Source: Rhodospirillaceae bacterium (GTDB taxonomy: Bacteria; Pseudomonadota; Alphaproteobacteria; Rhodospirillales; UBA2165). From it: DNA of 64,000 nt. The stretch lies in NCBI GenBank assembly GCA_947467145.1, contig CANIGJ010000020.1:1-64000 (forward strand), read 5' to 3'. The position numbers were made by a program, and so were the translations under genes. This document shows positions 7,313 through 35,902 of this stretch, in pieces. The notes under the pieces are model-generated. The model had not been told where the DNA came from. It did no database searches and was given only the letters and a program-made list of their open reading frames with translations. The stretch's first letter is position 1. Every line of letters begins with the position of its first letter.

Positions 7313-7323
7313 GAACTGAATCG

Positions 7324-9264: not shown

Positions 9265-9324
9265 GGGCTAACGATGAACTCGCGAGCCTCGACAGGCAAA
9301 CCCATATGTTCTTTATTTGTTCTT

Positions 9325-9887: not shown

Positions 9888-10123
9888 GCCGCTCAGGCCA
9901 TCCCGTACCCTGCGCGATAATCGCGCGGGCGTTTTCGATACTCTGTCGCGCCGGCCCCATTTCGCGGAATAGTCCTTATCCCGCGAGATGCGGGCTGCGG
10001 CGTTCTTCGGGATGATTAAGTGCCGCGCTGGACTGTTAGCATGCCACCACCCTTGCGACCCCACGATACCCCCGTAACAAAGGCCTATTGACGGAGCATT
10101 TTCTATTATCTATTGTTTAGACA

Positions 10124-12086: not shown

Positions 12087-12139
12087 GTTAGACAGCAAGG
12101 AGAAAAAAGATGAATGATTTCAAGAGAAGCAGAGAAAGG

Positions 12140-12215
12140 TGGTGCCCGGGGACGGAGTTGAACCGCCGACACTGCGATTTTCAGTCGCATGCTCTACCAA
12201 CTGAGCTACCCGGGC
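12140..12215 (-). tRNA. tRNA-Phe (GAA)
   Basis: Complete 76-nt cloverleaf on the minus strand: 5' GCCCGGG pairs with 3' CCCGGGC, and the gene encodes CCA. The D arm is GCTCAGTTGGTAGAGC, the anticodon loop CTGAAAA (anticodon GAA), and the T loop GTTCAACTC. The integrase gene ends beside its 3' end, which makes it the likely attachment site of the left-hand island and the island's right boundary. Confidence 0.95.
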
Positions 12216-13569: not shown

Positions 13570-13662
13570 GGCGCCTATATAGCAAGCTTGGCCGCCCAAG
13601 ACCATTACCAGGGCGTAGGCCGATGTACGGAAATTTAAAGTGTCACGGAGCCTGAAACGCCT

Positions 13663-15995: not shown

Positions 15996-16014
15996 CCTCG
16001 CGGGTTTGCCGATC

Positions 16015-18097: not shown

Positions 18098-18148
18098 AGC
18101 GCGGATTCGCTTGACAAAATGGCCCTCCGGCCATGAAAAGACCGCGCC

Positions 18149-20101: not shown

Positions 20102-20104
20102 AGC

Positions 20105-20770: not shown

Positions 20771-21868
20771 GGCCTTCTTCACGACGTCCTCAAAGATGTA
20801 CTGGGCCGGGCGCTGCTTATCGAGCGCGATTTCCGGAACCATCGGGCCTTCGGTCTGCGGGCCTTTCAGCCACACCTTCAACGCCTTCAGCGGGCTGTTG
20901 AACGTATCGGTCACGGCCGTCGGCTCGTAGCCGCAATGGACCATGCAATCGGCGCATTTTTCGTAGGCGCCGGTGCCGTACTGATCCCACTCGACCGTCT
21001 CCATCAGCTCCTTGAAGGTCTGCGCATAACCTTCGCTCAGCAGGTAGCACGGCTTCTGCCAGCCGAAGACGTTGCGCGTCGGGTTGCCCCACGGCGTGCA
21101 TTTGTAGTCCTGATTGCCGGCAAGGTAATCCAGGAACAGGGTCGACTGGCTGAAACGCCATTTCTTCCCGGCGGCCTTGCCGCGGCGGAAGATGTCGCGG
21201 AACAGATTCTTGGTGCGCTCACGCGTCAGGAAGTGCTGCTGATCTTCAGCGCGCTCATAGGCGTAGCCCGGCGAGACCGTGATGCCTTCGACCTGCAGGT
21301 CGTTGTTGCAGAAATCGAAATACTCGATCGCCTCGTCCGCCGACATGTTGTTGAAGACGGTGCAATTCACGTTGACGCGGAAACCCGCCTTCTTGGCGGC
21401 GCGGATCGCTTTGACGGCGCGATCAAACGTGCCCTTCTGATTGACCGCAATGTCATGCGCCTCGCCCAAGCCATCCAGATGGACGGAGAAGGTCAAGTAA
21501 ACGGATGGCTTGAATTTCGGCAGGCTCTTTTCGAGCAGCAGCGCATTGGTGCACAGATAGACGAACTTCTTGCGCGCCACGATACCTTCGACGATCTCGA
21601 CGATGTCTTTGTGGATCAGCGGCTCGCCGCCCGGGATCGATACGACGGGTGCGCCGCACTGATCGACCGCGTCGAGGCATTCCTCCACGCTCAGGCGCTT
21701 ATTGAGGATGTTGTCGGCGTAGTCGATCTTGCCGCAACCCGGGCACGCCAGGTTGCAACGAAACAACGGCTCCAGCATCAGCACGAGCGGATAGCGTTCA
21801 ACGCCCTTGAGGCGTTGTTTCACGAGATAGGATCCAACTCGGATCTGCTGCATCAAAGGGACGGCCAA
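20723..21868 (-). CDS. hpnH: Adenosylhopene transferase HpnH (radical SAM)
   Basis: HpnH joins a 5'-deoxyadenosyl group from SAM to hopene, the first step of side-chain extension. The radical-SAM cluster ligands are CNLACPGCG near residues 39-47, followed by SIPGGEP. I place the start at TTG 21868 (family start AVPLMQQIRVGSY), which has a GAAGGAG ribosome site. The frame extends upstream to 21895, but that part overlaps ispH. It lies 4 bases after the ispH stop and is translationally coupled to it. The C-terminal Cys-rich segment KCADCMVHCGYEPTA is typical. Confidence 0.94.
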   Translation of the reverse strand: MAVPLMQQIRVGSYLVKQRLKGVERYPLVLMLEPLFRCNLACPGCGKIDYADNILNKRLSVEECLDAVDQCGAPVVSIPGGEPLIHKDIVEIVEGIVARKKFVYLCTNALLLEKSLPKFKPSVYLTFSVHLDGLGEAHDIAVNQKGTFDRAVKAIRAAKKAGFRVNVNCTVFNNMSADEAIEYFDFCNNDLQVEGITVSPGYAYERAEDQQHFLTRERTKNLFRDIFRRGKAAGKKWRFSQSTLFLDYLAGNQDYKCTPWGNPTRNVFGWQKPCYLLSEGYAQTFKELMETVEWDQYGTGAYEKCADCMVHCGYEPTAVTDTFNSPLKALKVWLKGPQTEGPMVPEIALDKQRPAQYIFEDVVKKASETVAATNDNRSDAA

Positions 21869-21872
21869 CTCT

Positions 21873-22850
21873 TCAGCTCCTTCTCGCGAGCGCACGCGGG
21901 CTCGATCTGGCTGCCAGCAACTCCGGCGGCAATTTAAACTGCACGTTTTCCTGTACGCCGACGACTTTTTCGACGTTCACCGTGCGATAGGCTTTCAGCT
22001 TCTCGATCAGCTCGATGACCAATTCCTCGGGCGCCGAGGCGCCGGCGGTCACACCTATGGTCTCCGCGCCCTCAAGCCAGGCCGGATCGAGCTCGCGCGC
22101 ATCGTTGATCAGATAAGAACGAACGCCCATCTCGGTGCCGATCTCGCGCAATCGATTCGAATTCGAACTGTTCTGCGCGCCGACCACGAGGAGCAGATCG
22201 ACCTTCTCGACGATCTGACGCACCGCCTGCTGACGGTTCTGCGTCGCATAGCAGATGTCGCGCACGTCGGGTCCGCTGATCTTCGGGAACTTCGCCTGCA
22301 GCGCTTTGATGATTTCGCGCGTGTCATCGACGCTCAACGTCGTTTGGGTCACGTAGGCGACGTTGTCCGGATCGCTCACGTTGAGCTGTTCGACGTCGGC
22401 CGTTTTGGTGACGAGATGAACGCCGCCCGGGATACGGCCCATGGTGCCTTCGACCTCGGGATGGCCGGCATGCCCGATCAGGACAACATCACGTCCCTTC
22501 GAGGCGTGGTTCTGGCCTTCCTTGTGGACTTTCGACACCAGCGGGCAGGTCGCATCGATGATCGGCAGGCTGCGCTGCTTGGCGTCGTTCTCGACCGCCT
22601 CGGAAATGCCGTGCGCGCTGAAAATGGTGACGCCGCCGTCGGGGATATCATCGACCTCTTCGACGAAGATCGCGCCCTTCTTCTTGAGCGTCTCGACAAC
22701 ACGTTTGTTGTGGACGATCTCATGGCGCACATAGACAGGCGCCCCGAAAATCGACAGGGCCTGCTCAACGATCTCAATGGCGCGCTCGACACCGGCGCAA
22801 AACCCGCGCGGCTGCGCCAACAGGACCCGAATCGGTCTAAGCTCTTGCAT
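21873..22850 (-). CDS. ispH: 4-hydroxy-3-methylbut-2-enyl diphosphate reductase
   Basis: The last step of the MEP pathway: HMBPP to IPP and DMAPP. The three Fe-S Cys lie in [25 protein letters not shown] and [11 protein letters not shown]; the substrate His are in HEIVHN and [10 protein letters not shown], and the Glu is in HPEVEGTMG. 325 residues is normal. It is the first gene of a minus-strand pair with hpnH and divergent from hpnA (91 bp between starts), placing the isoprenoid supply inside the hopanoid cluster. Confidence 0.96.
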
Positions 22851-22941: not shown

Positions 22942-23928
22942 GTGCGGACACTGGTAACCGGAGCCACCGGATTTGTAGGCGCCGCAGTCGCCCGGCGGCT
23001 CCTGGCGGCCGGTCACGAGGTCCGCGTCCTCGTCCGCCCGACCAGCGTCCTGACCAATATCGCAGACCTGCCCCTCGAAAAGCGCATAGGCGACCTGCGC
23101 GATCCGGCCTCGCTCCGAGCCGCCATGGAGGGAATCGACGCGCTATTCCATGTCGCGGCCGACTACCGCATTTGGACGCCCAAGCCCCAGGAATTGCTGG
23201 ACAGCAACGTCATCGGGACCGGCAACATCATGGACGCCGCCCTGGCGGCCGGGGTCGGGCGAATCGTCTATTGCTCCTCCGTCGCGGCCATCGTCCCCAA
23301 GCCCGATGGCGGCATTGCCGACGAATCGGTCATGGGGACCGAGGACCAGATGATCGGCCTCTACAAACGGTCCAAATTCCTGGCCGAGGCCGAGGTGTTC
23401 CGCCGCGTCGCCGAGAAGGGCCTGCCGGCCGTGATCGTCAATCCGTCCGCCCCCATGGGCCCGCGCGACGTGAAGCCGACGCCTACGGGCCGCATCATCG
23501 TCGATGCCGCGCGCGGCAAGATTCCCGTCTATGTCGATACCGGGCTCAATGTCGTGCATGTCGATGACGTCGCCGAGGGGCACCTGCTGGCCTTCGAGAA
23601 GGGCAAGATCGGGGAACGCTATATCCTGGGCGGCGAGAACGTCACCTTGAAGGAATTGCTGACGATCGTCGCACAGTTCGTCGGGCGCAAACCGCCCCGG
23701 ATCCAGCTTCCGCACGCCGTTACCGTCCCCATCGGCTATATCGCGGAAACTTGGTGCCGCGTGTTCGGCGGCGAGCCCATCGCGACGGGCGACGCCGCAC
23801 GCATGGCCAAGAAAAAAATGTTCTATTCGTCCGACAAGGCGAAACGCGATCTCGGCTACGCGCCCAGACCGGCGCGCGAAGCGATCGCCGACTCGCTCTC
23901 TTGGTTCAGACAAAACGGATATATCTGA
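22942..23928 (+). CDS. hpnA: Hopanoid-associated sugar epimerase HpnA
   Basis: A 328-residue extended SDR. The NAD-binding motif TGATGFVGAAVARRL is at the N-terminus. The catalytic pattern is CSSVAAIV, then YKRSKFLAE (Tyr and Lys), and the active-site loop VNPSAPMGPRD is characteristic of HpnA. It starts at GTG 22942. Its stop overlaps the start of the nucleotidyltransferase gene (TGATG), so both are one transcript. The exact substrate in hopanoid side-chain synthesis is not established. Confidence 0.92.
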   Translation: MRTLVTGATGFVGAAVARRLLAAGHEVRVLVRPTSVLTNIADLPLEKRIGDLRDPASLRAAMEGIDALFHVAADYRIWTPKPQELLDSNVIGTGNIMDAALAAGVGRIVYCSSVAAIVPKPDGGIADESVMGTEDQMIGLYKRSKFLAEAEVFRRVAEKGLPAVIVNPSAPMGPRDVKPTPTGRIIVDAARGKIPVYVDTGLNVVHVDDVAEGHLLAFEKGKIGERYILGGENVTLKELLTIVAQFVGRKPPRIQLPHAVTVPIGYIAETWCRVFGGEPIATGDAARMAKKKMFYSSDKAKRDLGYAPRPAREAIADSLSWFRQNGYI

Positions 23929-24686
23929 TGCGCGCCATTATGCTCGCGGCCGGTGTCGGCCAACGTTTGTTCGGCGGCGATCCGAACGCCAAACCCAAGA
24001 GCCTGCTGGAGTTTGGCGGCAAGACCTTGATCGAGCGCCATCTCGCCGCGATCAAAAGCACCGGCATCAGCGATCTCACCCTCGTCGTCGGCTATCGCGC
24101 CGATGAACTGCGCGCCGCCATCAAAGCCCTCGATACCGACGGTTTCGTCAGCTTCGTCGAAAACCCGGATTACCGCGAAGGCAGCTCGGTTTCACTGTGG
24201 TGCGCGCGCAACGTGCTGCGCGGCGGCAGCGATGTCGTCTTCATGGATGCCGACGTGCTCTATCACGAAGATGTGCTGGGCCGCCTGGTGCGCTCCGACG
24301 TCGCCAATTGCCTGTCTTACGACGAAGACATCGAACCCGGTGATGAGCCGGTGAAAATCTGTCTGAAAAACGGCGTGCCCGCCGAATTCGGCAAGGTCGT
24401 CAGCGATACCTTCGACGGTTTCGGCGAATGGGTCGGCTTTTTGAAACTGACCCCGGCCATGGCCGGACAACTCGCCGACCGTCTCGATCATTTCATGCAG
24501 AACGGCGGGCGTAATCGGCCGATGGAAGATGCCGTGCGCGAATTGGTGCGCGAATTGCCCGCGGGCACATTCGGCATCGCTGATGTGTCGGATCTGCCGT
24601 GGACGGAGATCGATTTTCCCGAAGACGTGGTGAAGGCGCGCGACCACGTCCTGCCCGCGATCGCCAAAGTAAAAAGCCGGTCCTAA
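23928..24686 (+). CDS. Stand-alone nucleotidyltransferase (MobA/LicC-like), probable head-group activating enzyme
   Basis: 252 residues. The NTP-binding loop is canonical: MRAIMLAAGVGQRLFG, then NAKPKSLLEFGGKTL with the conserved Lys, and the metal Asp in VFMDADVLYHED. The C-terminal DFPEDVVKAR is typical of LicC-like cytidylyltransferases. It is coupled to hpnA by TGATG and faces the phosphonate genes. The likely role is activating a phosphonate or phospho head group with CTP for the downstream CDP-alcohol transferases. A sugar-1-phosphate role with HpnA is the main alternative. Confidence 0.7.
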   Translation: MRAIMLAAGVGQRLFGGDPNAKPKSLLEFGGKTLIERHLAAIKSTGISDLTLVVGYRADELRAAIKALDTDGFVSFVENPDYREGSSVSLWCARNVLRGGSDVVFMDADVLYHEDVLGRLVRSDVANCLSYDEDIEPGDEPVKICLKNGVPAEFGKVVSDTFDGFGEWVGFLKLTPAMAGQLADRLDHFMQNGGRNRPMEDAVRELVRELPAGTFGIADVSDLPWTEIDFPEDVVKARDHVLPAIAKVKSRS

Positions 24687-24696
24687 GACCGGCTTT
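24673..24696. terminator. Bidirectional terminator between convergent genes
   Basis: A perfect 10-bp stem (AAAGCCGGTC / GACCGGCTTT) with a 4-base loop. On the minus strand it is followed by a T5 run and so ends the PhyH gene transcript. The stop codon of the plus-strand nucleotidyltransferase is formed by the loop and stem junction, so the terminator overlaps that coding sequence. Confidence 0.8.
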
Positions 24697-24702
24697 CACT
24701 CG

Positions 24703-25464
24703 TCACACTCTGTAGACGTATTCCTTGCCGGCTTGGCGCTCGATGTCGGGCGGGAAGCTCTGGCGTTTGTCGGCGTAATAGCGCTCGAGAAAGTCGCCTT
24801 CCGACAGCTTGTTGTACGTCGCGAAATAGATGCGGCGGATCGTATCGCTCATGTTCGGTTCCGAACGGTGCGGCACATAGGCATCGAAATACAGGATGTC
24901 GCCCGGCTTCGTCGGCAGCAGCTTGAAATCCATCTTCTGGGTCTGCTCGATGGTCAGCGGCTCCCACTCGTTGCCGACAAGCTTCGGCTGCTCGGGACGC
25001 TTGGCAACTTCAAGGCAGCCGTTCGAGGTATTGGCCTCGTCGATGGTCACCATCGCGTTGATGTAATAACGCGCATAGGTTTCCCAACCGGCCTGGGCAT
25101 CTTGATGCGGCTTGAAGCCTTCGCCGCCCGGCATCTTGTAATTGACCTTGTCCTTGAACAGTACCGCCTCTTCGCCGAGCAGCTGGCCGATGCTCGCGCG
25201 TAACGATTCCGCGAGCTCCTTCATGCCCGGATGGAACGGGGTCATATTCTCAATGCGGCTGATGAGCTGCTTGCCGTCGCCCTTCAGGCTTTCCTCATGG
25301 TAGACCCAATGCGCGCCGACCTGCTCAGGACGGGTCGCAAGGTCGCTGGACCATGTGTCGAGCAGCTTGGCTTCGGACGGCGAAAAGGCCCCCGGAACAA
25401 ATACGTAACCATTCTCATGGAAACTATCGATCTGGGCCTGTGTCAGCACCGGGACGTTTAACAT
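24703..25464 (-). CDS. PhyH-family Fe(II)/2-oxoglutarate dioxygenase, candidate AEP hydroxylase
   Basis: 253 residues of the phytanoyl-CoA dioxygenase fold. The 2-His-1-Asp iron site is visible as HQDAQAGW (His-x-Asp) and the distal His in [10 protein letters not shown]. The Arg in [11 protein letters not shown] is placed to bind 2-oxoglutarate. It resembles PhnY, which hydroxylates 2-aminoethylphosphonate at C1. It is divergent from the PEP mutase gene with 110 bp between starts. No PhnZ-type HD oxygenase is in the window, so degradation is not suggested. I infer head-group tailoring to 1-hydroxy-AEP; hydroxylation of a lipid chain is possible. Confidence 0.7.
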
Positions 25465-25574
25465 GGCTTAATCTGTACCCGCTATTTTCGCTGGATTCGT
25501 GGCGGAAAATAGTCGAATTTCCCGCCAAAGCAAATCCGGGACATTACCTAATGCGCGCAGTCAAAAGCGAGGCT

Positions 25575-27212
25575 ATGGCGATTCAAACGTCCGACCCCAG
25601 CAAGTTCCGCCAACTCCGTACCCTTTTAGAGTCCGCGGACACCGAATTCCTCATGGAAGCCCATAACGGTATTTCGGCGAAAATCGCCGAGGAAACCGGC
25701 TTCAAGGGTATCTGGGCCTCCGGCCTATCCATTTCCGCAGCACTCGGCGTGCGCGACAGCAACGAGGCGTCCTGGACCCAGGTCCTCGAAGTGCTCGAAT
25801 TCATGGCCGACGCCACCACGATCCCGATTCTGGTCGACGGCGATACCGGCTACGGCAACTTCAACAACATGCGCCGCGCGGTGCAGAAGCTGATCCAGCG
25901 CGGTATCGGCGGCATCTGCATCGAGGACAAGCTGTTCCCGAAAACCAACTCGTTCATCGGCGAAGGCCAGCCCTTGGCCGACATCGACGAGTTCTGCGGC
26001 AAGATCAAAGCCGGCAAGGACAGCCAGACCGACGCAGATTTCTCCATCGTCGCACGCGTCGAAGCGCTCATCTCCGGCTGGGGCATGGAAGAGGCGCTGA
26101 AGCGCGCCGAGGCCTATCGCAAGGCCGGCGCCGACGCGATCCTGATCCATTCCAAGCGCAATGACGCGATCGAGATTTTGCAGTTCCTCAAGGAATGGGC
26201 GAACCGAGCGCCTGTCGTCATCGTGCCGACGACCTATTACAAAACGCCGACCAAAGAATTCCAGGACGCCAAGACCTCGGTGATCATCTGGGCGAACCAC
26301 AATATCCGCGCCTCCATCGCGGCCATGCGCGACGTGTCGGCCCGCATCCAGCGCGAACAGTTTCTGGGCGGCGTTGAAGACAACATCGCGACGGTGAACG
26401 ACATCTTCAATCTCGCCGGCAACGCGGAATTGTCGCAGGCCGAGAAGCGCTATCTGCCGGTCACCAAGCCGATGCCGCGCGCCATCGTGCTGGCCGCTTC
26501 GCGCGGCAATGAATTGGGTGGGCTCACCGAGCATCATCCGAAATGCATGATCGACATCCGTGGCCAACCTCTGCTGCGCCGCATGGTGTCGACCCTGAAT
26601 GAGGAAAAGATCCGCGAGATCGCGGTGGTGCGCGGTTACAAGAAAGAAACCGTGAACCTGCCGTCCATCGATTACGTGGACAACGACCGCTACATGGTGA
26701 CGGGCGAAGTGGCGACGCTCGCCTGCGCCGAGAAGTTCATCAAGGGCGACGTCATCGTTTCTTACGGCGATATCCTGTTCCGCCACTACATCCTGCCGCT
26801 GCTGATCAATGCAGAAGGCGACATCGTGCTGGCGGTCGATGCGCTGTGGCGCGAACGCGATCCCGATCCGCAATCGCATGTGCGCGATCTCGTCCAAGGT
26901 TCGCGCCCGTTCCGCACCGGTTATCTCGATGACGATGCCGTGCATCTCAAAGGCATGGGCCGCGATATCAAAGCCGACAACGTGCACGGCGAATGGATCG
27001 GCTTGGCCAAACTGTCGGCCAAGGGTAGCGAGCTGGTGAAGGCCGAAATGGCCGCCATGCGCGCCGACGGCACGGCCGAAAATGCCGATCTCACCATGCT
27101 GTTCGCGCGCCTGATCAAAAGCGGCGCGGACATCCGCGTGCTCTACGTCACCGGCCATTGGCTGGACGTCGACAACGCGACCGATCTCGAAAACGCACAA
27201 AAGTTCCTGTAA
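25575..27212 (+). CDS. aepX: Phosphoenolpyruvate mutase fused to a nucleotidyltransferase
   Basis: The N-terminal ~290 residues are PEP phosphomutase, which forms the C-P bond (PEP to phosphonopyruvate). They carry [24 protein letters not shown] and the diagnostic [11 protein letters not shown] loop. The C-terminal ~245 residues are a nucleotidyltransferase with [19 protein letters not shown] and YGDILFRHY; the usual GxG of its nucleotide loop reads SRG. The start is at [11 protein letters not shown], after GCGAGG; the longer upstream frame is untranslatable-looking. Such fusions are known in phosphonate pathways where a cytidylyltransferase activates AEP. The gene begins the plus-strand pair with the decarboxylase. 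Confidence 0.93.
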
Positions 27213-27263
27213 GGGATACCCCGTGCGCGCGCCCAGCGTGCGCGGGCAACATCGGGGGGCAAT

Positions 27264-28400
27264 ATGATCCAAGCTGACGATTTCATCGTACCGGCCGCCG
27301 CGCGCGGGTACGACTTCTACACCGGCGTCCCCTGCTCGTTCCTGACCCCCTTCATCAATCGCGCGATCAGTTCGAACAGCACCGACTATGTGGGCGCGGC
27401 GAGCGAAGGCGAAGCGGTTGCGATCGCAGCGGGCGCCTGGCTCGCCGGACGCAAGACCGTCGTGATGTGCCAGAATTCCGGCCTCGGCAACTGCGTCAAC
27501 CCGATCACCTCGCTCAACTATCCCTTCCGCATCCCGACGCTCCTCATCACCACCTGGCGCGGCCAACCCGGCGTTGCCGACGAGCCGCAGCACGAGTTGA
27601 TGAGCCAGATCACCCAATCGATGATGGAATTGATCAGGGTGCGCTGCATGACCTTCCCGCGCATGGCGGACGAGGTCGGCCCACTCCTCGATGCGGCCGA
27701 AAAGGTGATGGCCGAGAGCGATCTGCCCTTCGGCATGATCATGGAAAAAGATACCGTGGCGCCGTCCAAGCTGGACGCGCCGCCCGCCCCGGTGCGCAAG
27801 CCCGGCGAGCGCAAGGATCTGAGCACCGGCAAAGCGCAGCCGGCGCGCTTCGAGATATTGAAAGAACTGCTCAAGATCATCGACGACAACACCGCCGTCA
27901 TCGCGACCACCGGCAAATCCGGGCGCGAGCTTTTCACGCTGGCCGATCGCGAACAGCATCTCTATCAGGTCGGCTCGATGGGCTGCGCCGCCGGGATGGG
28001 CCTGGGCGTCGCGCTCAACAGCGACAAGCCGGTTGTCGTGCTGGACGGCGACGGCGCGGCGCTCATGAAGATGGGCACCTTCGCCACCGTCGGCGCCTAC
28101 GCACCGCGCAACCTGATCCATGTGCTGCTCGACAACGGCATGCACGATTCGACGGGCGGTCAGGCGACCGTCAGTGGCTCGATCGATTTCGCGATGATCG
28201 CCCAAGCTTGCGGCTATCGCACGGCCTGGACCTGCGACGAAGCCGGTGGCTTCAAGGACGCCATGGCCGCCGCGCGTGCGTCGGACGGCCCGCACCTGAT
28301 CCGCGTGAAGATTTCGGCCGGTTCGTTGGAACCGCTCGGCCGCCCGACGGTGAAGCCGCCGGAAGTGGCCCGCCGCTTCAAGGCCTTCCTGGCGAAGTAA
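27264..28400 (+). CDS. aepY: Phosphonopyruvate decarboxylase
   Basis: A TPP enzyme of 378 residues that turns phosphonopyruvate into phosphonoacetaldehyde and drives the unfavourable mutase step forward. The N-terminal part has TGVPCSFLTPF and the Glu in GAASEGEAVAIAAG. The middle has PGVADEPQHE, and the TPP/Mg site is LDGDGAALMKMG with LLDNGMHDSTGG. It starts 51 bp after the mutase fusion, after a GC-rich hairpin-like spacer. The AEP transaminase gene converges on it with 1 bp between stops. Confidence 0.94.
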   Translation: MIQADDFIVPAAARGYDFYTGVPCSFLTPFINRAISSNSTDYVGAASEGEAVAIAAGAWLAGRKTVVMCQNSGLGNCVNPITSLNYPFRIPTLLITTWRGQPGVADEPQHELMSQITQSMMELIRVRCMTFPRMADEVGPLLDAAEKVMAESDLPFGMIMEKDTVAPSKLDAPPAPVRKPGERKDLSTGKAQPARFEILKELLKIIDDNTAVIATTGKSGRELFTLADREQHLYQVGSMGCAAGMGLGVALNSDKPVVVLDGDGAALMKMGTFATVGAYAPRNLIHVLLDNGMHDSTGGQATVSGSIDFAMIAQACGYRTAWTCDEAGGFKDAMAAARASDGPHLIRVKISAGSLEPLGRPTVKPPEVARRFKAFLAK

Positions 28401-28401
28401 G

Positions 28402-29541
28402 CTACTGGGCTTTGCCGCCGCGCTGCCTGATGCCCATCTCGTCGATGACTTCGCTCACCGCCTGAATGGCGCCTTGCAGGTCTTTCGGGAAAATCCGCCC
28501 GATGCAGCCGATGCGGAACGAATCCGCCTTGGTCAGCTTGCCGGGATAGATGGCGTAACCGCGCACGCGCAGCGCATCGTAGAACTTTTCGAATTCGTAG
28601 TTCGGATCGGCTGGCGTGCGGAAGGTCACGATGATCGGCGCTTGCAGATTGTGCGACAGCATCGGCTCGAAGCCGAGCTTGGTCATACCGTCGAGCAGCA
28701 CCTTGCAGTTTTCGGCGTAACGCCGCCCGCGCCCGGCAACGCCGCCCTCTTCCTCGAATTCCGTGATCGCCTGATCGAGCGCCGACAGCACATGCGTCGG
28801 CGGCGTGAAACGCCATTGCCCGCTCTTTTCCATATATTGCCATTGATCGGCGAGATCGAGGCTGAGCGACGACGCGTTGTCCGTCGCCGCCTTCAGCGCG
28901 TCCGTCTTGGCAATCGCAAAGCCCATGCCGGGCACGCCTTCCAAACACTTGTTGGATGATGCGATGACGGCGGTAAGGCCCAGTCCCACCGCATCGATGG
29001 GGATCGCGCCGAACGAGCTCATGGCATCGACCAAGAGGGCGCGGCCTTCGGCGCGCACAACGTCGGCCATCTCGGCCAGCGGATTGAGGATGCCTGCCGT
29101 CGTTTCGCAATGGACCATGATGACATGGCTGAGCGCGGGATCGGCTTTCAGCAATTTGCGGATTTCGCCCGGTGACGGCGGTTCATGCTCCTCGGTGCGA
29201 TAGATATCTACACGCCGGCCCAACCGTTGGGCGATCTTGGCGATACGTTCGCCATAGGCGCCATTGGCCAACACCAACACACCCGCACTGCGCGGCACCA
29301 ACGAATCAATTGTGGCCTCGACCGCGAACGTGCCGCTGCCCTGGATCGGCACGCAGGCATAACCACTCTCGGGCCCCGAACCGGCGATCTTCAGCAGCGC
29401 ACTCCGCACCCGGGCTGTCAGGGCGATAAAGCCGGTGTCACGCGAGCCCCAATCGCGCAGCATGGCGCGCTTGACGCTCTCTGAGGTGGTCAACGGCCCA
29501 GGCGTCAAAAGAATTGGCGTCAGGAGAATCGGATCGGCCAT
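28402..29541 (-). CDS. 2-aminoethylphosphonate aminotransferase
   Basis: A class V PLP aminotransferase of 379 residues, PhnW/AepZ type, interconverting phosphonoacetaldehyde and 2-aminoethylphosphonate. The start MADPILLTPILLTPGPLTTS carries the family N-terminus; an upstream ATG at 29571 is less likely. The PLP Lys is in ASSNKCLEGVPGMG and the cofactor Asp in LVDAMSSFGAIPID. Next to the mutase and decarboxylase it should run in the biosynthetic direction. The first codons show a 15-bp tandem duplication encoding ILLTP twice. Confidence 0.92.
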   Translation of the reverse strand: MADPILLTPILLTPGPLTTSESVKRAMLRDWGSRDTGFIALTARVRSALLKIAGSGPESGYACVPIQGSGTFAVEATIDSLVPRSAGVLVLANGAYGERIAKIAQRLGRRVDIYRTEEHEPPSPGEIRKLLKADPALSHVIMVHCETTAGILNPLAEMADVVRAEGRALLVDAMSSFGAIPIDAVGLGLTAVIASSNKCLEGVPGMGFAIAKTDALKAATDNASSLSLDLADQWQYMEKSGQWRFTPPTHVLSALDQAITEFEEEGGVAGRGRRYAENCKVLLDGMTKLGFEPMLSHNLQAPIIVTFRTPADPNYEFEKFYDALRVRGYAIYPGKLTKADSFRIGCIGRIFPKDLQGAIQAVSEVIDEMGIRQRGGKAQ

Positions 29542-29646
29542 AAGCGCGCCTCTGCATCTAGGTTGTGGCACCGATTGCGAGAATCGGCGCTTAATTGTAA
29601 AGGGACGGCAACAAATGAATATGCTTCACGGATAATCTTCCGGGCC

Positions 29647-30249
29647 ATGAGTCACAATACCTGGTTACATCGTATCGCCGAGGTCGGCGTGACACCCCTG
29701 GTGCGCACGGCGATCCGGCCGAACCACATCACCATCGGCCGCCTGGTAACCGGGCTGGGCGCTGCCGTGCTGTTCGCGCTGGGCACCCGAGAGGCCGAAC
29801 TGTGGGCCAGCGGCATTTTCCTCATATCGATGCTGCTCGACCGCGCCGATGGCATCCTGGCCCGCAAACAGGGCACCATGAGCCGCGCCGGCCACGTCTT
29901 CGACCTGATCGCCGATGCGGTCTGCACCACCATTGTTTTCATTGGGATCGGCGTCGGCCTGAACGAAAGCTGGCTTGGCGACGTCAGCTACCTGCTGGGT
30001 GCGGCCGCCGGAACCGCCATCGCCTTCTCGTTCTGGATGTCGGCGCGACTAGAATCGGTGGCGGGCACGCAGGCCCTCGGCCTCAGCAGCGCCGGCGGAT
30101 TCGATCCGGACGATGCGATGCTCGCGGTGCCGTTCGCCTGCGCGTTCGGCTTTTCGATGTATCTGTTGGTTGCAGCGGCCTTCATCGCGCCGCTCTTCGC
30201 GCTGATCTTGCTGTATCTGCGCTGGAAGATCTTGCGCCGCCTCGCCTAG
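29647..30249 (+). CDS. CDP-alcohol phosphatidyltransferase 1
   Basis: A 200-residue membrane enzyme. The complete CDP-OH-P signature D-x2-DG-x2-AR-x8-G-x3-D-x3-D is present as DRADGILARKQG... GHVFDLIAD near residues 68-93. About six membrane helices are visible. It transfers a head group between a CDP-alcohol and a lipid or alcohol acceptor. Lying directly after the AEP genes, it is a candidate for moving phosphonoethanolamine from CMP-AEP to a diacylglycerol-type lipid. Its stop shares CTAG with the convergent second paralogue. Confidence 0.85.
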   Translation: MSHNTWLHRIAEVGVTPLVRTAIRPNHITIGRLVTGLGAAVLFALGTREAELWASGIFLISMLLDRADGILARKQGTMSRAGHVFDLIADAVCTTIVFIGIGVGLNESWLGDVSYLLGAAAGTAIAFSFWMSARLESVAGTQALGLSSAGGFDPDDAMLAVPFACAFGFSMYLLVAAAFIAPLFALILLYLRWKILRRLA

Positions 30250-30863
30250 GACTTCGCGCGTAAGCGGACGGCCTGGACGATCGTCCACAGGCAATAGACC
30301 GAAGCCCCGATGCCGGCCGCGACGAAGAACGGCTCCAAGAAGCCAAGCCAGGTGACCGGCGCGATCAGATAAATGCCGTCTTCAAGTTCGAAGCCCGCGA
30401 AGCCGGGATAACCGACCGCTTCGCCGGCGTCGGTGTCTTTGGTCTGGCGATCGATCTCGAGATTCGAGAACAACGAGATCAGGGCCGAAGCCGATCCCGC
30501 CCCGCCGAGCACCAGCGACCAGACACCGAGCGATCCATAAAAACAAATCCCCATGCCGGCGAACAGCGCGGCATAGCCGATGCCGCCGACGGCATAATCC
30601 AGGTAATAGCCGAGCTTCGACGACGTGCCCTGGAGGCGCGCCAGTTCCCCGTCGAAATGATCGAGGAAGCGCGACGCCACAAAAATTCCCGCCCCCCAGC
30701 CGGCAGTGTCCGGGCCATGCGCGATCAAACCGGCGCCGGCCAATGCCATCAGCAGGGTCATCAGGGTAATGTGGTTCGGGCGAATGGCGGTCGCGGCCAA
30801 AGGCCGGACGAGAACGCGCGCGAGTTGTTGATCCCAGGGGACTTGCTTCATGGCGGCGGACAT
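30246..30863 (-). CDS. CDP-alcohol phosphatidyltransferase 2, signature lacks the last Asp
   Basis: A 205-residue polytopic paralogue. The signature reads DHFDGELARLQGTSSKLG, then YYLDYAVGG: the first three Asp and the Gly are present, but the fourth Asp, proposed as the catalytic base, is Gly. It may be inactive, may use another base, or may act as a partner of another copy. The N-terminus AIRPNHITLMTLLMALAG parallels the first paralogue, which suggests duplication. It converges on the first copy with overlapping stops and diverges from hpnN. Confidence 0.85.
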   Translation of the reverse strand: MSAAMKQVPWDQQLARVLVRPLAATAIRPNHITLMTLLMALAGAGLIAHGPDTAGWGAGIFVASRFLDHFDGELARLQGTSSKLGYYLDYAVGGIGYAALFAGMGICFYGSLGVWSLVLGGAGSASALISLFSNLEIDRQTKDTDAGEAVGYPGFAGFELEDGIYLIAPVTWLGFLEPFFVAAGIGASVYCLWTIVQAVRLRAKS

Positions 30864-30987
30864 TTGGGGCCACGCGTCGTTACTGTCAAGTTAAGGCCGT
30901 TCCACCACCAAGAGATTTCCGCCAAATATGGCGGTTTTGCTGCGCAAAACCTTGCCCCAAAGGGCGCTGCATGGCTTAGTGCGCCGC

Positions 30988-33618
30988 ATGTCCTCCGAAC
31001 AAACCGATATGGCGGGGCGCATCGCGCGCTGGTGGGTCGCCCGGGTCATCCGCCATGCCCGCGCCGTCACGATCGGCATCCTGCTCGCGACCGTGCTGAC
31101 CTGCGTCTATGTCGCGCGCAACCTCGACATCAATACCAGCGACACCGATATGCTATCGGCGGAACTGCCGTTCCGCCAGAACGCGATCGCCGTCGACAAG
31201 GCGTTTCCGCAATTGTCGGACAACCTCGCCGTGGTGCTGGACGGCCTCAATCCCGACAAACTCGCCGATGCCACCGAACTGCTGCTCGCCGAATTGCGCA
31301 AACACGAAGACGTCCTCGGCACGCCCTTCAATGCGGCCGCCGAGCCGCTCTTTCGCAGGAATGGCCTGCTCTACAAAAGCTCCGGTGAACTGGCGAGCCT
31401 GCTCGACAAACTTGTCGCGGCACAACCGTTCCTCGGCCGGCTGTGGAACGATCCGACAATGGTCGGCCTGTTCGGCGCAATAGAACTGGTGCTGAACGAA
31501 AGCGACGGCACTGGCGCTTTCGCCGCCAACGACCTCTTCGCGGAGATCACCAAGACGATCGACGCCGAGACGCAAGGCCGCGCCAACGTGATGTCGTGGC
31601 GCCGCCTGTTTGCTAATGAGGCGGCAACCGGCAAGCCCGAGTTTCAGACCATCCTGCTGCATCCCCGCCTCAATTATGAATCGCTCGGCCCCGGTGGTGC
31701 GGCGATGGATATGGTGCGTGGGATCGTGCGCGATCTCGATCTCGAAAAACAATATGGCGTGCGCATCCGCCTGACCGGCTCGGTGGCACTCGAATATGAC
31801 GAGCTCGATACCTTGCGCCAGAACATGGGCCTCGCCAGCCTGCTCTCGTTCGTGTTCGTCGGCGCGTTGCTCGTCTGGGGCATGCGCTCGGGTATTCTGG
31901 TGACCTCGACCCTCATCACCTTGTTCGTCGGTCTCGTCCTCACTGCCGGCTGGGCGACGCTCGCGGTCGGCGAGCTCAATCTCATCTCCGTTGCCTTCGC
32001 CGTGCTGTTCATCGGTCTCGGCGAAGATTTCGGCGTGCATTTCTGCCTGCGCTACCGTGAAGAAGCCAATGCCGGCATCGCCAAGACGGATGGGCTCGCG
32101 ACGACCGCGCAAGACGTCGGCGGCGCACTGGCGCTCTCCGCCGCGACAGCCGCCATCGGATTCCTCGCCTTCGTGCCGACCGATTATCGCGGCCTGGCGG
32201 AGCTCGGCATCATCGCGGGCGGTGGCATGTTCGTCGCACTCTTCACTAATATGACGCTCTTGCCCGCACTGCTGGCGATCTGGCCGACCAAGGCCAAGCT
32301 GACCGAACCCAAGGCGGGCAGCCGCTATGCGTGGGATCTACGCAAGGTCGCCAAACCCGGCACCATCATCGTCGGCTTGTTTACCTTGGCCAGCCTGTTC
32401 ACCCTGCCCGGCCTGCGCTTCGATTTCGATCCGATGAATTTGCGCAATCCCAATAGCGAATCCATCAAGACCCTGCAGGACATGATGGATGCGGGCAGCC
32501 GCGGCCCCTATACGGTCGATATCCTCGCTGCCGATCTGGCGACCGCCGATCGCATGGCCGAGAAGCTGAAGACACTGTCGACGGTCGACAGCGTTGTTAC
32601 GCTGTCCAACTATGCGCCGGTGGATCAGGACGACAAGATCGCCGCCGTCGAATCCGCGGCCTTCACCTTGTTGCCGGCACTCTCCATCGCGCCAACGCAT
32701 ACAAATGCCACTGACGAAGAACGGCTGGCGGCCGTCAGTACCCTGCGTCGCGCACTCACCCGCTTCCTTGATGCCCACGGCGATTCACCCTTAGCGCCGT
32801 CCGCGCAGGCGCTGCTTAAATCGCTGGCTGAATTCGCGACCCAGACACGTCTCGACGCGACCAAGCTCGCGTCCCTCGACCGCGCTTTGACGGCATCTTT
32901 GCCCGCCCGCCTGCGCGAGCTTAAAGACGCGTTGGAGCCAAGCCCCATCACAATCGATGCGATCCCGCCCGCGCTGCGCGACCGCCAGATCGCAACGGAC
33001 GGCCGTGCAATGATCGAGGTGATCCCGAAAGCCGATATGCGGGATCGCGACAACCTGAAAGCCTTTGTCGGCGACGTGCGCACAATCGAGCCGCATGCCA
33101 CCGGATCGCCGGTCGTGATCCTCGAAGCCGGCAATGCGGTGGTGAAGGCTTTCATCCAGGCCGGCCTAGGCTCGCTGATCGCCATCACCTTGCTGACCTT
33201 TGCGTTGCTCCGCAACGTGCGCGAGATCGTGTTCATCTACGTGCCGTTATTCCTGGCCGCGATCCTGACCATCGGCATTTCAGTCGTCTTCGACATGCCG
33301 TTCAATTTCGCCAATGTCATCGTGCTACCGCTGCTGTTCGGCCTCGGCATCGCATCGGGCATTCATCTGGTGTTGAGCGAACGCCATGCCGCCAAAACGC
33401 TGGGCGTCGCCGAAACGACCACGCCGCGCGCGGTGTTCTTCTCGACCCTGACCACCATCGCCTCGTTCGGGACGGTGGCGCTGTCCGATCATCCGGGCAC
33501 GGCGAGCATGGGCATCCTACTCACCGTCGCCATCCTGCTCACGCTCATCTGCTCGTTGACCGTGTTGCCGACCTTGCTGGAACGTTGGCCCATCGCCAAA
33601 GATAAGGGAGCCGAATGA
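30988..33618 (+). CDS. hpnN: Hopanoid-associated RND transporter HpnN
   Basis: An 876-residue MMPL/RND protein (start MSSEQTDMAGRIARWW). Two halves each have one N-terminal membrane helix, a large periplasmic loop (NTSDTDMLSAELPF in the first) and a five-helix bundle. The functional helices show FIGLGEDFGVHF in the first half and LLFGLGIASGIHLVLSE in the second. HpnN moves hopanoids toward the outer membrane in studied alphaproteobacteria. Its stop overlaps the third CDP-alcohol transferase start (ATGA), and hpnM follows nearby on the other strand. It might also carry the locus's other lipid products. Confidence 0.92.
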   Translation: MSSEQTDMAGRIARWWVARVIRHARAVTIGILLATVLTCVYVARNLDINTSDTDMLSAELPFRQNAIAVDKAFPQLSDNLAVVLDGLNPDKLADATELLLAELRKHEDVLGTPFNAAAEPLFRRNGLLYKSSGELASLLDKLVAAQPFLGRLWNDPTMVGLFGAIELVLNESDGTGAFAANDLFAEITKTIDAETQGRANVMSWRRLFANEAATGKPEFQTILLHPRLNYESLGPGGAAMDMVRGIVRDLDLEKQYGVRIRLTGSVALEYDELDTLRQNMGLASLLSFVFVGALLVWGMRSGILVTSTLITLFVGLVLTAGWATLAVGELNLISVAFAVLFIGLGEDFGVHFCLRYREEANAGIAKTDGLATTAQDVGGALALSAATAAIGFLAFVPTDYRGLAELGIIAGGGMFVALFTNMTLLPALLAIWPTKAKLTEPKAGSRYAWDLRKVAKPGTIIVGLFTLASLFTLPGLRFDFDPMNLRNPNSESIKTLQDMMDAGSRGPYTVDILAADLATADRMAEKLKTLSTVDSVVTLSNYAPVDQDDKIAAVESAAFTLLPALSIAPTHTNATDEERLAAVSTLRRALTRFLDAHGDSPLAPSAQALLKSLAEFATQTRLDATKLASLDRALTASLPARLRELKDALEPSPITIDAIPPALRDRQIATDGRAMIEVIPKADMRDRDNLKAFVGDVRTIEPHATGSPVVILEAGNAVVKAFIQAGLGSLIAITLLTFALLRNVREIVFIYVPLFLAAILTIGISVVFDMPFNFANVIVLPLLFGLGIASGIHLVLSERHAAKTLGVAETTTPRAVFFSTLTTIASFGTVALSDHPGTASMGILLTVAILLTLICSLTVLPTLLERWPIAKDKGAE

Positions 33619-34283
33619 TGGCGCTCTTTCCCTTGGTCCGCCATATCTCCAACGCAGCGTCGGGCGGCTTGATCCGCACGCCGGTGACGCCGAACCAGAT
33701 CACTGCGACCTCAATTCTGCTGGGGCTCCTCAGCGCCGCCGTCCTGTTGCTCAACACACGCACCGGCGATCTCGCCTGCGGCATCTTGATCACGATCAGC
33801 TACGTGCTCGACAATTGCGACGGCGACGTCGCGCGCGCCAAGAAGCTGTCATCCAAGTTCGGCGCCTTCTTCGATACCTTCGGCGATTGGCTGGTCCACG
33901 CCGTGCTGTTCGCCTGCCTCGGCATCGCGGCCTATGAGCGGACCGACGCGATCCTCTGGCTGTGGTTCGGCATCGCCGCGTCGGCCGGCAGCACCATCAA
34001 TTACGTCATCGGCCTGATCAACGATCTACGCCTGAACAAAGCGCCGCCACCCGATTTCAATCCGGCGGACGAAGGCGAGTTCAAGCGCCCGGCGCAAAAT
34101 GAATCCATCGGCAAGTGGCTGGTGTTCGTCTTCCGCGAACTGGCGCGCGCCGATTTCTGCTTCATCGTACTGGTGCTCGCGGCGTTCGATTGGCTGCCCT
34201 ATCTGCTGCCTTTCGCCGCCATTGGCTCGCAGGTCTACTGGATCATCTTCTTCGTCGTGCGCGACGAAAAATACCACGTCTAA
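33615..34283 (+). CDS. CDP-alcohol phosphatidyltransferase 3
   Basis: 222 residues. The complete signature is DNCDGDVARAKKLSSKFG, then AFFDTFGD, with all four Asp. About six helices are present, with an unusual cytoplasmic insert near residues 135-165 (NKAPPPDFNPADEGEFKRP). It is coupled to hpnN by ATGA overlap and to the flippase-like gene (3 bp gap), so this copy is firmly part of the lipid-export operon. The head group is unknown; CMP-AEP is a candidate. Confidence 0.85.
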   Translation: MMALFPLVRHISNAASGGLIRTPVTPNQITATSILLGLLSAAVLLLNTRTGDLACGILITISYVLDNCDGDVARAKKLSSKFGAFFDTFGDWLVHAVLFACLGIAAYERTDAILWLWFGIAASAGSTINYVIGLINDLRLNKAPPPDFNPADEGEFKRPAQNESIGKWLVFVFRELARADFCFIVLVLAAFDWLPYLLPFAAIGSQVYWIIFFVVRDEKYHV

Positions 34284-34286
34284 GCC

Positions 34287-35270
34287 ATGAAATTCCTGTT
34301 CTTCGTCTTGGGCGTCGTTCTACTGGGCGTCGTCATCTCGCAAACCGACATCGCGCACGCGCTGTCCTTGCTGCACGAGATCGGCTGGGGCTTCGTCGCC
34401 ATCTTCGCGCTTTATTTCCTGGGCTTTCTCATCGATGCCTATGCGTGGCAGCTCACCACACCGGGCGTGCCCAACAATTGGCAATGGCTCTATCGCTTCT
34501 ATCAGGTGCGCTTGGCCGGCGAAGCCTTCAACACCGTGACGCCAACCGCCAGCATGGGCGGCGAGGCGGTCAAAGCGATCATGCTGAAGAACCTCTACGG
34601 TGTCGGCTATCGCGACGGCACGGCGTCCTTGATCCTCGCCAAGACGATGATCGTCGTCGCCCTCGTCGCGTTCCTGACCGTCGGCTTCGCGCTGATGCAG
34701 GGTTCACCCAAGCTCGACGACACTTATAAATTCGTCTCAGGCGCGGGGCTTGCGGCGTTCGGCCTCGGTGCGGTCCTGTTCCTCCTCATCCAGCGCTACA
34801 AGATCACCTCGCTGGCCGGCACCGCACTAGGGCGCAGCCGCTGGTTCGCCAAACTCAATACGCTGCTGGAACCGTTGAATGAGGTCGAGGATCGGTTGGT
34901 GCATTTCTACACGCGCCAGCCCAACCGATTGGTGGCGGTTCTGCTGTTGAGCTTCCTCAATTGGGTCATCGGGATTTTCGAAATCTGGCTGGTGATGGAC
35001 CTGATCGGCCATCCCATCAGCCTCACCGACGCCTGGATCATCGAAACGGTGGCGCAGCTCGTGCGCTCGGCGACGTTCTTCATCCCGGCCAGCATCGGGG
35101 CGCAGGAAGGCGCGTTTCTGATCGTCGGGGCCGCCATCACCGGACAGCCGTCGTTCGGCCTCACGGTCGCGCTGGCGCGCCGTATCCGCGAACTGGTCTG
35201 GACGATCTGGGGATTGGCCGTCTTCTACCTGCTGAAGCCGCAGATCGACGAGACCGAACCGACGAATTAG
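34287..35270 (+). CDS. YbhN/AglD-type membrane protein, flippase-like (LPG synthase TM family)
   Basis: 327 residues and seven to eight membrane helices of the lysylphosphatidylglycerol-synthase membrane-domain family (UPF0104). Conserved features include RLAGEAFNTVTPTASMGGEA near residues 72-91 and SIGAQEGAFLIVG near 270. It has no soluble catalytic domain. Family members of this kind often accompany hopanoid and lipid clusters and are proposed to move lipids across the inner membrane. It is last in the hpnN operon and ends 4 bp into the hpnM stop. Confidence 0.82.
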   Translation: MKFLFFVLGVVLLGVVISQTDIAHALSLLHEIGWGFVAIFALYFLGFLIDAYAWQLTTPGVPNNWQWLYRFYQVRLAGEAFNTVTPTASMGGEAVKAIMLKNLYGVGYRDGTASLILAKTMIVVALVAFLTVGFALMQGSPKLDDTYKFVSGAGLAAFGLGAVLFLLIQRYKITSLAGTALGRSRWFAKLNTLLEPLNEVEDRLVHFYTRQPNRLVAVLLLSFLNWVIGIFEIWLVMDLIGHPISLTDAWIIETVAQLVRSATFFIPASIGAQEGAFLIVGAAITGQPSFGLTVALARRIRELVWTIWGLAVFYLLKPQIDETEPTN

Positions 35271-35902
35271 TTGGCAGCCGTTGCCCCGGCGAGGATCGCG
35301 TCGGCTTTCTGGTTGAGCTTGGTGACCAATTCGCTTGGCCCACCGGCATTCAAGATCCCGTTATATTCCGAACGGCGCACGGCAAGCTCGCTGATGCCGT
35401 TGGAAACGATCACATCGACGATGCGCCACTCGTCGCCGAACTTGCGCATCACATAGGTGATCGGCACGGCATCCTTGTTCGGCCGCACGATGCGGGTCTG
35501 CACGAGCTTCGCCCCGCTCGGCCCGTCCTGCTCGCCGACGGTCTCGAACCTCTCGCCGGAAAAACCGTCGAAGCGCTGGGCGTAGGTGCCGACGCTCACG
35601 CGCTTGAACGCATCGACGAGCTTGGTCTTGTCGGTGTCGCTCGCGTCGCGCCATTTGGCGCCCGAAGCGATCTGGATCATGAAGGGCAGATTGAAGGTCG
35701 AACCGATCGGCGATTCCAATTGATCGTAGCGGCCCTGTATCTTGGTTGTCGCGGCCGTTTGCATGACCTTGAGCAGCGATTGATGAAAGCTCTCCACCAC
35801 CTCGCTCGGCGGGCCGGCAAACGCACTCGTCGCCGCGACCGACAATCCTAAAATTGCCCCGCAAAACCAAATAGTTAGCCGATACATAATCGATGTCCTC
35901 AT
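35267..35902 (-). CDS. hpnM: HpnM, MlaC/Ttg2D-like periplasmic lipid carrier
   Basis: 211 residues from the ATG at 35902 (an ATG at 35887 is possible). A signal peptide is clear: hydrophobic LTIWFCGAILGLSVAATSAFAG. The mature part fits the MlaC fold: VVESFHQSLLKVMQ, then LPFMIQIASG, FKRVSVGTYAQRF, and VRPNKDAVPITYVMRKFGDEWRIVDV near the C-terminus. MlaC-like proteins ferry lipids through the periplasm, so next to hpnN it would be the shuttle for hopanoids or phosphonolipids. The open frame continues far upstream on this strand, but that is antisense to other genes. Confidence 0.9.
   Translation of the reverse strand: MRTSIMYRLTIWFCGAILGLSVAATSAFAGPPSEVVESFHQSLLKVMQTAATTKIQGRYDQLESPIGSTFNLPFMIQIASGAKWRDASDTDKTKLVDAFKRVSVGTYAQRFDGFSGERFETVGEQDGPSGAKLVQTRIVRPNKDAVPITYVMRKFGDEWRIVDVIVSNGISELAVRRSEYNGILNAGGPSELVTKLNQKADAILAGATAAN

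Follow-up and report, generated by a model that had tools for sequence, protein, structure and literature searches.

Introduction

Hopanoids, membrane lipids that resemble sterols, also serve as molecular fossils. In a 2025 survey of Alphaproteobacteria their side chains are listed as nucleosides, polyols, cyclitol ethers derived from sugars, and carbamoyl and amino forms; four genes of the hopanoid locus (hpnA, hpnB, hpnL and hpnM) are described there as having no established function (PMC12583986). In Roseomonas, the gene for squalene-hopene cyclase (SHC) is linked to a phosphoenolpyruvate (PEP) mutase gene, and an undiscovered 'terpene-phosphonate' has been suggested (PMC8776678). A known phosphonate route is the phosphonyl-tailoring (Pnt) pathway, some of whose clusters hold both a fused and a separate nucleotidyltransferase (PMC6697681). 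The present analysis concerns a 64,000-nucleotide stretch of DNA, hereafter the window, from a Rhodospirillaceae bacterium (assembly GCA_947467145.1, contig CANIGJ010000020.1). Between positions 22942 and 35902, hopanoid genes are interleaved with a full gene set for the synthesis of 2-aminoethylphosphonate (AEP) and with three cytidine diphosphate (CDP)-alcohol phosphotransferases, as judged by Pfam and NCBIfam profiles.

The original prediction, made from the letters of the window, held that this locus makes and exports a phosphonolipid or an AEP-decorated hopanoid alongside hopanoids. Co-inheritance with SHC and recurrence of the locus in relatives lend support to that proposal, whose chemistry and export we infer. 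Of its two products we favour the hopanoid. Our tentative reading is that the locus makes a hopanoid bearing an AEP head group. With a little more reserve, we propose a class of phosphonohopanoids, with a side chain carrying (1-hydroxy-)2-aminoethylphosphonate added by CDP-alcohol phosphotransferases of the hopanoid machinery, that may be widespread in Rhodospirillales.

Results

Organisation of the locus

Genes were called from Pfam and NCBIfam profile matches against curated bit-score cut-offs, with 20 proteins or open reading frames (ORFs) scanned. The locus reads as follows.

22942-23928, plus strand: hpnA, hopanoid-associated sugar epimerase (TIGR03466, 478 bits, cut-off 368)
23928-24686, plus strand: NTP1, stand-alone PntC/LicC-like cytidylyltransferase, MobA-like (NTP_transf_3; closest solved structure 6pd1)
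24703-25464, minus strand: PhyH-type Fe/2-oxoglutarate (2OG) oxygenase, PhnY*-like (PF05721, 72 bits)
25575-27212, plus strand: PepM, PEP mutase fused to a C-terminal NTP_transf_3 domain, NTP2 (TIGR02320, 387 bits, cut-off 320)
27264-28400, plus strand: Ppd, phosphonopyruvate decarboxylase (TIGR03297, 420 bits, cut-off 313)
28402-29541, minus strand: AEP transaminase of the PhnW/AEPT type (TIGR02326, 488 bits, cut-off 401; TIGR03301, 477 bits, cut-off 361)
29647-30249, plus strand: CDP1, CDP-alcohol phosphotransferase with the canonical D1-D4 motif (PF01066)
30246-30863, minus strand: CDP2, CDP-alcohol phosphotransferase with Gly for the fourth Asp (PF01066)
30928-33618, plus strand: hpnN, RND-type hopanoid transporter (TIGR03480, 930 bits, cut-off 752)
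33615-34283, plus strand: CDP3, CDP-alcohol phosphotransferase with the canonical motif (PF01066)
34287-35270, plus strand: HpnL-like flippase, LPG_synthase_TM (PF03706, 114 bits)
35267-35902, minus strand: hpnM, MlaC-like hopanoid-associated protein (TIGR03481, 186 bits, cut-off 160)

The PepM start at 25575 is inferred from homologs, the ORF itself opening at 25353. All the genes originally named, from the nucleotidyltransferase to HpnM, were found in place, with HpnM (35902-35267) closing the locus as predicted. PepM, Ppd and PhnW each exceed their curated cut-offs, completing the AEP-forming pathway, as do hpnC, hpnB, hpnD, shc, hpnG, hpnH, hpnA, hpnN (TIGR03480) and hpnM for the hopanoid locus. 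HpnN falls short of the stricter hopanoid-transporter model NF052374 (705 bits against 1100), and the flippase lies under the HpnL cut-off (TIGR03476, 168 bits against 196).

The locus is not a single operon: four genes (those for PhyH, PhnW, CDP2 and HpnM) lie on the minus strand, tightly packed against plus-strand genes. The stop codon of hpnA overlaps the start of NTP1 in TGATG, as that of hpnN does the start of CDP3 in ATGA; hopanoid and head-group genes are therefore probably translationally coupled at these two points. Recent acquisition was rejected, since the GC content of the stretch (0.61-0.63) shows no shift from that of the adjoining stretches on either side. A single PEP mutase above cut-off was found in the genome to which the window belongs (3.7 Mb in 37 contigs, completeness 90.7%).

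Co-inheritance with squalene-hopene cyclase

In a sample of 385 Alphaproteobacteria, for which genome relatedness was partly corrected, PEP mutase was found in 44 genomes, SHC in 103, HpnN in 111 and the CDP1 family in 44 (profile cut-offs for the mutase and SHC; E values up to 1e-120 for HpnN and up to 1e-25 for the CDP1 family). SHC accompanies the mutase in 41 of 44 genomes, against 62 of the 341 genomes without a mutase (p 2e-23). The CDP1 family is tied to both: 43 of its 44 genomes have SHC and 36 have the mutase (p 4e-35). HpnN is present in 35 of the 44 mutase genomes; in 15 of these the two genes lie within 15 kb on one contig and in 20 they do not. The predicted co-occurrence of AEP genes with hpnN in Alphaproteobacteria is thereby borne out.

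The three mutase genomes without SHC (G224, G341 and G345) have shorter mutase frames (438-452 amino acids) and no NTP1 match. Thirteen PepM matches below the cut-off, kept apart as a control, showed no link to SHC (5/13 with SHC). One of them, in the SHC-positive genome G030, lies beside hpnN and is probably a true mutase truncated where its contig stops; G030 and G330 are both CDP1-family genomes whose mutase is cut in this way. At the level of family labels, 20 of 23 mutase families include a mutase genome with SHC; for this test the number of families was set at 174, after the highest label encountered.

The association also holds within the window's own family, where SHC exceeds the cut-off in 15 of 16 mutase genomes and in 1 of 8 genomes without a mutase (p 2e-4). 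In this comparison the mutase-negative genomes G010-G012, counted as SHC-negative, have an SHC-like match under the cut-off (255-264 bits), G004, negative for both mutase and SHC, has hpnN, CDP2, CDP3 and hpnM at a contig end, and the contig of G022, the mutase genome without SHC, breaks off at ispH. Inside genus g11, two of nine members (G015 and G018) lack the mutase, NTP1, the CDP1 family and SHC jointly. The other seven keep the mutase: five have SHC and NTP1, G022 lacks SHC, and G019 (68% complete) lacks NTP1 in its draft.

NTP1 follows CDP1 even where the mutase is missing. Among the 62 SHC-positive genomes with no mutase above cut-off, NTP1 (E up to 1e-70) was found in all 7 with CDP1 and in none of the 55 without it; weak matches (5.6e-41 to 4.8e-31) occur in 6 of those 55.

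Recurrence of the locus in relatives

From a scan of named genomes the best 80 of 579 relatives were taken, so that the counts lean toward close relatives; any of eight genes (hpnA-D, G, H, N and shc) at 150 bits or more was counted as a hopanoid gene of the locus, and contig ends hide neighbours in many loci. Of the 68 loci with a Ppd gene, 38 contain at least one hopanoid gene and 34 at least two, as against 1 of the 12 loci without Ppd, a locus that ends inside the mutase fusion (L112). When the comparison is restricted to the 41 loci of at least 18 kb, the figures are 21/33 with Ppd and 0/8 without. The mutase fusion is present, whole or in part, in 16 of 24 genomes of the window's family. 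Loci containing hopanoid genes are found in cultured organisms as well, among them Roseomonas, Pararoseomonas, Plastoroseomonas, Inquilinus limosus and Skermanella aerolata. The association of AEP and hopanoid genes thus recurs in Rhodospirillales and is no assembly oddity, which excludes a gene order unique to this assembly.

Gene order is highly variable among these loci, with the AEP genes and NTP1/CDP1 interleaved in many orders, and the repeated association is therefore more telling than a single inherited block would be. In the second member of the window's genus (G002), the order from hpnC to hpnN is kept and CDP1 and CDP2 are absent between PhnW and hpnN. In three genomes (G323, G233 and G127) PepM lies elsewhere, yet Ppd, PhnW, PhyH, NTP1 and CDP1 stand between hpnN and hpnA; in G401 that interval holds PhyH, NTP1 and CDP1 only. 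A pair of NTP1 and CDP1 lies among hpnC, hpnD and hpnA in G104, G390 and G219, whose CDP1 copies join the CDP1 clade with weak support.

A gene resembling hpnM stands immediately before the mutase in ten loci (L049, L050, L065-L067, L069-L071, L074 and L111), several of which show no further hopanoid gene above threshold in the visible stretch. One contig, titled Mycobacterium sp. KBS0706 (L098), bears an Inquilinus-like cluster whose CDP1 pairs with that of Inquilinus limosus in the transferase tree, and its label is therefore probably wrong.

Predicted AEP synthesis and cytidylyl activation, and the PhyH protein

The PEP mutase motif EDKxxxxxNS is present in the window, and all five positions are found in 79 of 80 homologs. 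NTP1 has as its closest relative in the Protein Data Bank (PDB) the Treponema denticola (Tde) PntC, 6pd1, to which it aligns across residues 3-247. For PntC, the consensus GxG(T/S)RX4-8PK plus Lys153 has been named, and alanine swaps at Arg15, Lys25 or Lys153 leave less than 10% of activity (PMC6697681). At the aligned positions the NTP1 homologs have Arg in 49/49, Lys in 49/49 and Lys in 48/49, as does the window copy, which reads GVGQR, nine residues, PK, with Gln at the T/S place and a spacing one above X4-8. NTP1 retains Glu at the position of Tde-PntC Glu196, and at that of Glu104 it has Asp, the same as LicC (PMC6697681).

In the mutase-fused NTP2 of the window, LAASRGNE replaces the GxGxR signature. 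The signature Arg was found in none of 80 homologs: 75 have a different residue, 3 have a gap and in 2 the position is not covered. The PK lysine is retained in 79/80, and an Arg three positions earlier, present in 66/80, might compensate for the missing one. Since NTP1 keeps the PntC catalytic residues and NTP2 lacks the signature Arg, NTP1 is the better candidate for making the cytidine monophosphate (CMP) conjugate of AEP; the original prediction can be refined in that the AEP cytidylyltransferase is likely this separate protein and not the mutase-fused domain. Synthesis of AEP and its cytidylyl activation by the locus are likely.

The PhyH protein has HxD...H and an Arg, which we take to be the Fe ligands and 2OG-binding residue of PhyH-type oxygenases, conserved in 34/34 homologs. 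Its best NCBIfam match is the methylphosphonate hydroxylase NF052437, at 168 bits against a cut-off of 500, and PDB sequences gave weak, general matches only. An additional PhyH step in the pathway is probable; because the hydroxylase match is well below its cut-off, its assignment as AEP 1-hydroxylation is a guess.

The CDP-alcohol phosphotransferases and their links to hpnIJK

The motif DxxDGxxAR...GxxxDxxxD, presumably that of CDP-alcohol phosphotransferases, is present with all four Asp residues in the window's CDP1 and CDP3. In a tree of 117 transferases, CDP2 forms a clade of 34 sequences (support 97/82) and CDP3 one of 20 (100/100), while the CDP1 clade of 63 is more weakly supported (93/66) around a firm inner group of 59 (100/98). 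The canonical motif is found in 83 of 83 sequences outside the CDP2 clade. Within it, the fourth Asp, which we take to be the catalytic base, is absent from 31 of 34 sequences (24 Gly, 5 Val, 2 Ala); the window copy has Gly, the residue found in 15 of 15 aligned.

The Asp-less clade is not decaying, since its median identity exceeds that of CDP1 in loci carrying both. Across 20 such loci, window excluded, the CDP2 copies have a median pairwise identity of 57.7% and the CDP1 copies one of 53.5%, with CDP2 the higher in 153 of 190 pairs; where a locus carries all three transferases (11 loci), the corresponding values are 54.0% (CDP1), 57.6% (CDP2) and 44.4% (CDP3). CDP2 is thus conserved at least as well as the neighbouring transferases. 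An impression, from comparison with the window copies, that it is far better conserved than CDP1 was discarded, as the difference shrank in this like-for-like count. If the locus makes a phosphonohopanoid, CDP2 would have an altered reaction or act as a non-catalytic partner.

Homologs of CDP1 and CDP3 also appear beside the genes that modify the hopanoid side chain. In G002, G233 and G401, hpnI, hpnJ and hpnK are flanked by both, and the hpnIJK-linked copies fall inside the CDP1 and CDP3 clades. G233, in which the reading frames of hpnK and CDP1 have 4 bases in common, also has an HpnL above cut-off. Of 80 genomes searched, 13 have both hpnJ and a CDP1-family gene, and in 8 of these the two are no more than 5 kb apart; in G170, hpnJ, CDP1, PhnW and Ppd occur together on a single contig of 13.8 kb. 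In G323, hpnJ (C1:4028686-4030112) shows up as two matches that overlap, one of them containing an in-frame TAG, and a CDP1-family gene is 1.4 kb away; a pseudogene or a sequencing error is possible.

The remainder of the window

Upstream, a hopanoid and isoprenoid block at 15138-22850 contains hpnC, hpnB, hpnD, shc and hpnG on the plus strand and hpnH and ispH on the minus strand, all above NCBIfam or Pfam cut-offs (hpnH, 20723-21895, minus strand, 543 bits against 225). An ORF at 20936-21937 on the plus strand, seemingly a conserved protein between hpnG and ispH, is the opposite-strand shadow of hpnH. Here, as in a number of relatives, ispH (LytB; 21873-22850) stands between hpnH and hpnA, and ispG (GcpE; 12316-13605) flanks the hopanoid locus; both belong to the methylerythritol phosphate isoprenoid pathway.

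The stretch 300-12215 looks like an island. It has lower GC content (0.50-0.55), is closed off by an integrase of the phage type (10968-12086) next to tRNA-Phe (12140-12215), and holds a kinase/PP2C/VWA triad (300-3906), a methyltransferase-HNH protein (4499-6304) and a reverse transcriptase matching Drt9 (7324-8892, 526 bits). Downstream, 35951-63095 contains an acyl-CoA ligase, two UbiD-family decarboxylases (37583-39181 and 61554-63095), an acyl-CoA dehydrogenase, a P-type cation ATPase, a PF01553 acyltransferase (52906-54369) and a molybdenum hydroxylase subunit.

Discussion

The genes, whose catalytic motifs are intact, recur together and are inherited along with SHC, and on this basis we propose a pathway. 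PepM would convert PEP to phosphonopyruvate, Ppd would convert this to phosphonoacetaldehyde and PhnW would form AEP, which NTP1 would couple with cytidine triphosphate to give CMP-AEP. CDP1, with CDP3, would then use CMP-AEP to place the phosphonyl group on one of the hydroxyls of the bacteriohopanepolyol side chain, the acceptor itself being built by SHC, HpnH and HpnG. PhyH would probably hydroxylate C1 of the AEP part, before or after transfer, and the HpnL-like protein, HpnN and HpnM would deliver the product to the outer membrane. Attachment of AEP to a membrane lipid is likely, and the hopanoid side chain fits somewhat better than a glycerolipid as acceptor, mainly because CDP1 and CDP3 homologs adjoin hpnIJK.

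Several observations weigh against a phosphonohopanoid. In the scan of relatives, 30 of the 68 Ppd loci have no hopanoid gene in the stretch covered (hpnM being uncounted, and 6 of the 30 carrying an hpnM-like match), and 12 of the 33 of at least 18 kb still have none. G002 lacks CDP1 and CDP2 at its AEP locus and has CDP1- and CDP3-type genes in its hpnIJK cluster, while the window's own genome, 90.7% complete, gave no HpnJ match. The shared loss inside genus g11 could be a single deletion of a linked block. NTP1, CDP1 and PhyH occur with no PepM match in G401 (98% complete; L120) and G240 (95%; L125), so that in some genomes the compound activated may be AEP salvaged from outside, or a different substrate, and not AEP made by the cell itself. 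No phosphonohopanoid was found in the open-licence literature of PubMed Central (PMC), in which one paper bringing hopanoids and AEP together was found (PMC8776678). The cultured type strain of Skermanella aerolata, 5416T-32 (DSM 18479), carries the window's gene set (L106), and in the available text of PMC12583986 no phosphorus-bearing class is among the five described for its intact bacteriohopanepolyols; words beginning 'phospho' occur in that text once, for HpnG. As far as that text goes, this profile counts against a dominant phosphonohopanoid in this organism. The same source reports that no Rohmer degradation products were obtained from S. aerolata although intact hopanoids were seen, a gap that a modified side chain might fill but on which we do not lean.

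The main alternative, which we consider rather unlikely, is a glycerophosphonolipid. CMP-AEP would be used on diacylglycerol in a Kennedy-like reaction, and the resulting phosphonate counterpart of phosphatidylethanolamine would accompany hopanoids in the outer membrane and use the same transporters. In the Kennedy pathway the head group is transferred from CDP-ethanolamine, and CEPT/EPT enzymes act on diacylglycerol. The CDP1 model (predicted local distance difference test score, pLDDT, 88) matched AF2299 and phosphatidylinositol-phosphate synthases in a Foldseek search of the PDB (E to 1e-3) and, more weakly, human CEPT1 (E 0.011), which confirms the fold, a fold by which diacylglycerol and hopanoid acceptors are indistinguishable. 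Bacterial phosphonolipids have been predicted from ppm clusters (PMC6697681), and the long Ppd loci lacking hopanoid genes would suit such a product. However, a glycerolipid pathway would have no need of SHC, which nearly all mutase and CDP1-family genomes possess, and the position of the CDP1 and CDP3 homologs beside hpnIJK speaks for a hopanoid acceptor.

It is unlikely that NTP1 and the CDP-alcohol transferases use phosphocholine, phosphoethanolamine or inositol phosphate, with the AEP genes merely a neighbouring supply. The LicC-like Asp of NTP1 at the Glu104 position would be in keeping with such a substrate, as would six genomes with NTP1 and CDP1 and no PepM match (G401, G240, G034, G329, G251 and G397), three of which are 77-88% complete. 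Set against this are the Glu that NTP1 keeps at the Glu196 position, the interleaving of AEP genes with NTP1/CDP1 in many orders, and the presence of PepM in most CDP1-family genomes, to which G030 and G330 add contig-cut mutases. Delivery of AEP to an exopolysaccharide or lipopolysaccharide is improbable. This fate is known for bacterial AEP, as in the Bacteroides fragilis capsule (quoted in PMC6697681), but the locus combines three membrane CDP-alcohol transferases with lipid transporters, and no LicD-type protein is among the families matched by the 20 scanned proteins and ORFs. Degradation of AEP by the locus was rejected: PhnW also begins AEP breakdown and the oxygenase resembles PhnY-type enzymes, but PepM and Ppd serve synthesis, and phosphonatase (PhnX), the sole breakdown route searched, has no match above cut-off in the window's 90.7%-complete genome (best 47 bits against 220).

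Should the locus indeed make a phosphonohopanoid, a carbon-phosphorus (C-P) head group would be new chemistry for hopanoids and would offer a role for unexplained hopanoid-locus genes. It would explain the near-constant pairing of phosphonate synthesis with hopene cyclase in Alphaproteobacteria, where phosphonate synthesis would mostly be a hopanoid head-group pathway, and lipids would count as a further source of phosphonates in the environment. AEP and hopanoid gene sets that are mostly kept or lost together hint at a class of lipids perhaps yet to be isolated.

Among known systems, Bdellovibrio stolpii reportedly makes a sphingophosphonolipid with 1-hydroxy-2-aminoethylphosphonate; that lipid has the hydroxylated AEP head group that PhyH would suggest here, with ceramide as its acceptor. 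The four enzyme steps of the Pnt pathway (Ppm, Ppd, AEPT and PntC) are the same as those of the window locus, and the likeness extends to a nucleotidyltransferase fused to ppm with a separate one nearby and to the PntC catalytic residues kept by NTP1. The partners differ: the Pnt clusters described in that work associate with LicD-like proteins and glycosyltransferases, the window's set with CDP-alcohol phosphotransferases, PhyH and hopanoid genes (PMC6697681). Roseomonas and Belnapia share with the window the SHC-mutase linkage and a decarboxylase and aminotransferase beside the mutase, whereas nucleotidyl activation, CDP-alcohol transferases, linkage to hpnN or hpnIJK and co-inheritance beyond Acetobacteraceae are not treated in the available text (PMC8776678); in that of PMC9381506, no word starts with squalene, hopan or terpen. 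The bare hopanoid-mutase linkage is thus already in print, while the evidence from transferases, residues and co-inheritance was not found in the open-licence PMC literature. Finally, hpnI, hpnK and hpnJ, which form the cyclitol ether of bacteriohopanetetrol, provide a case of hopanoid-locus genes adding a polar head group to the side chain (PMC12583986). Their product is a sugar-derived ether without phosphorus, whereas the product proposed for the window carries a C-P bond.

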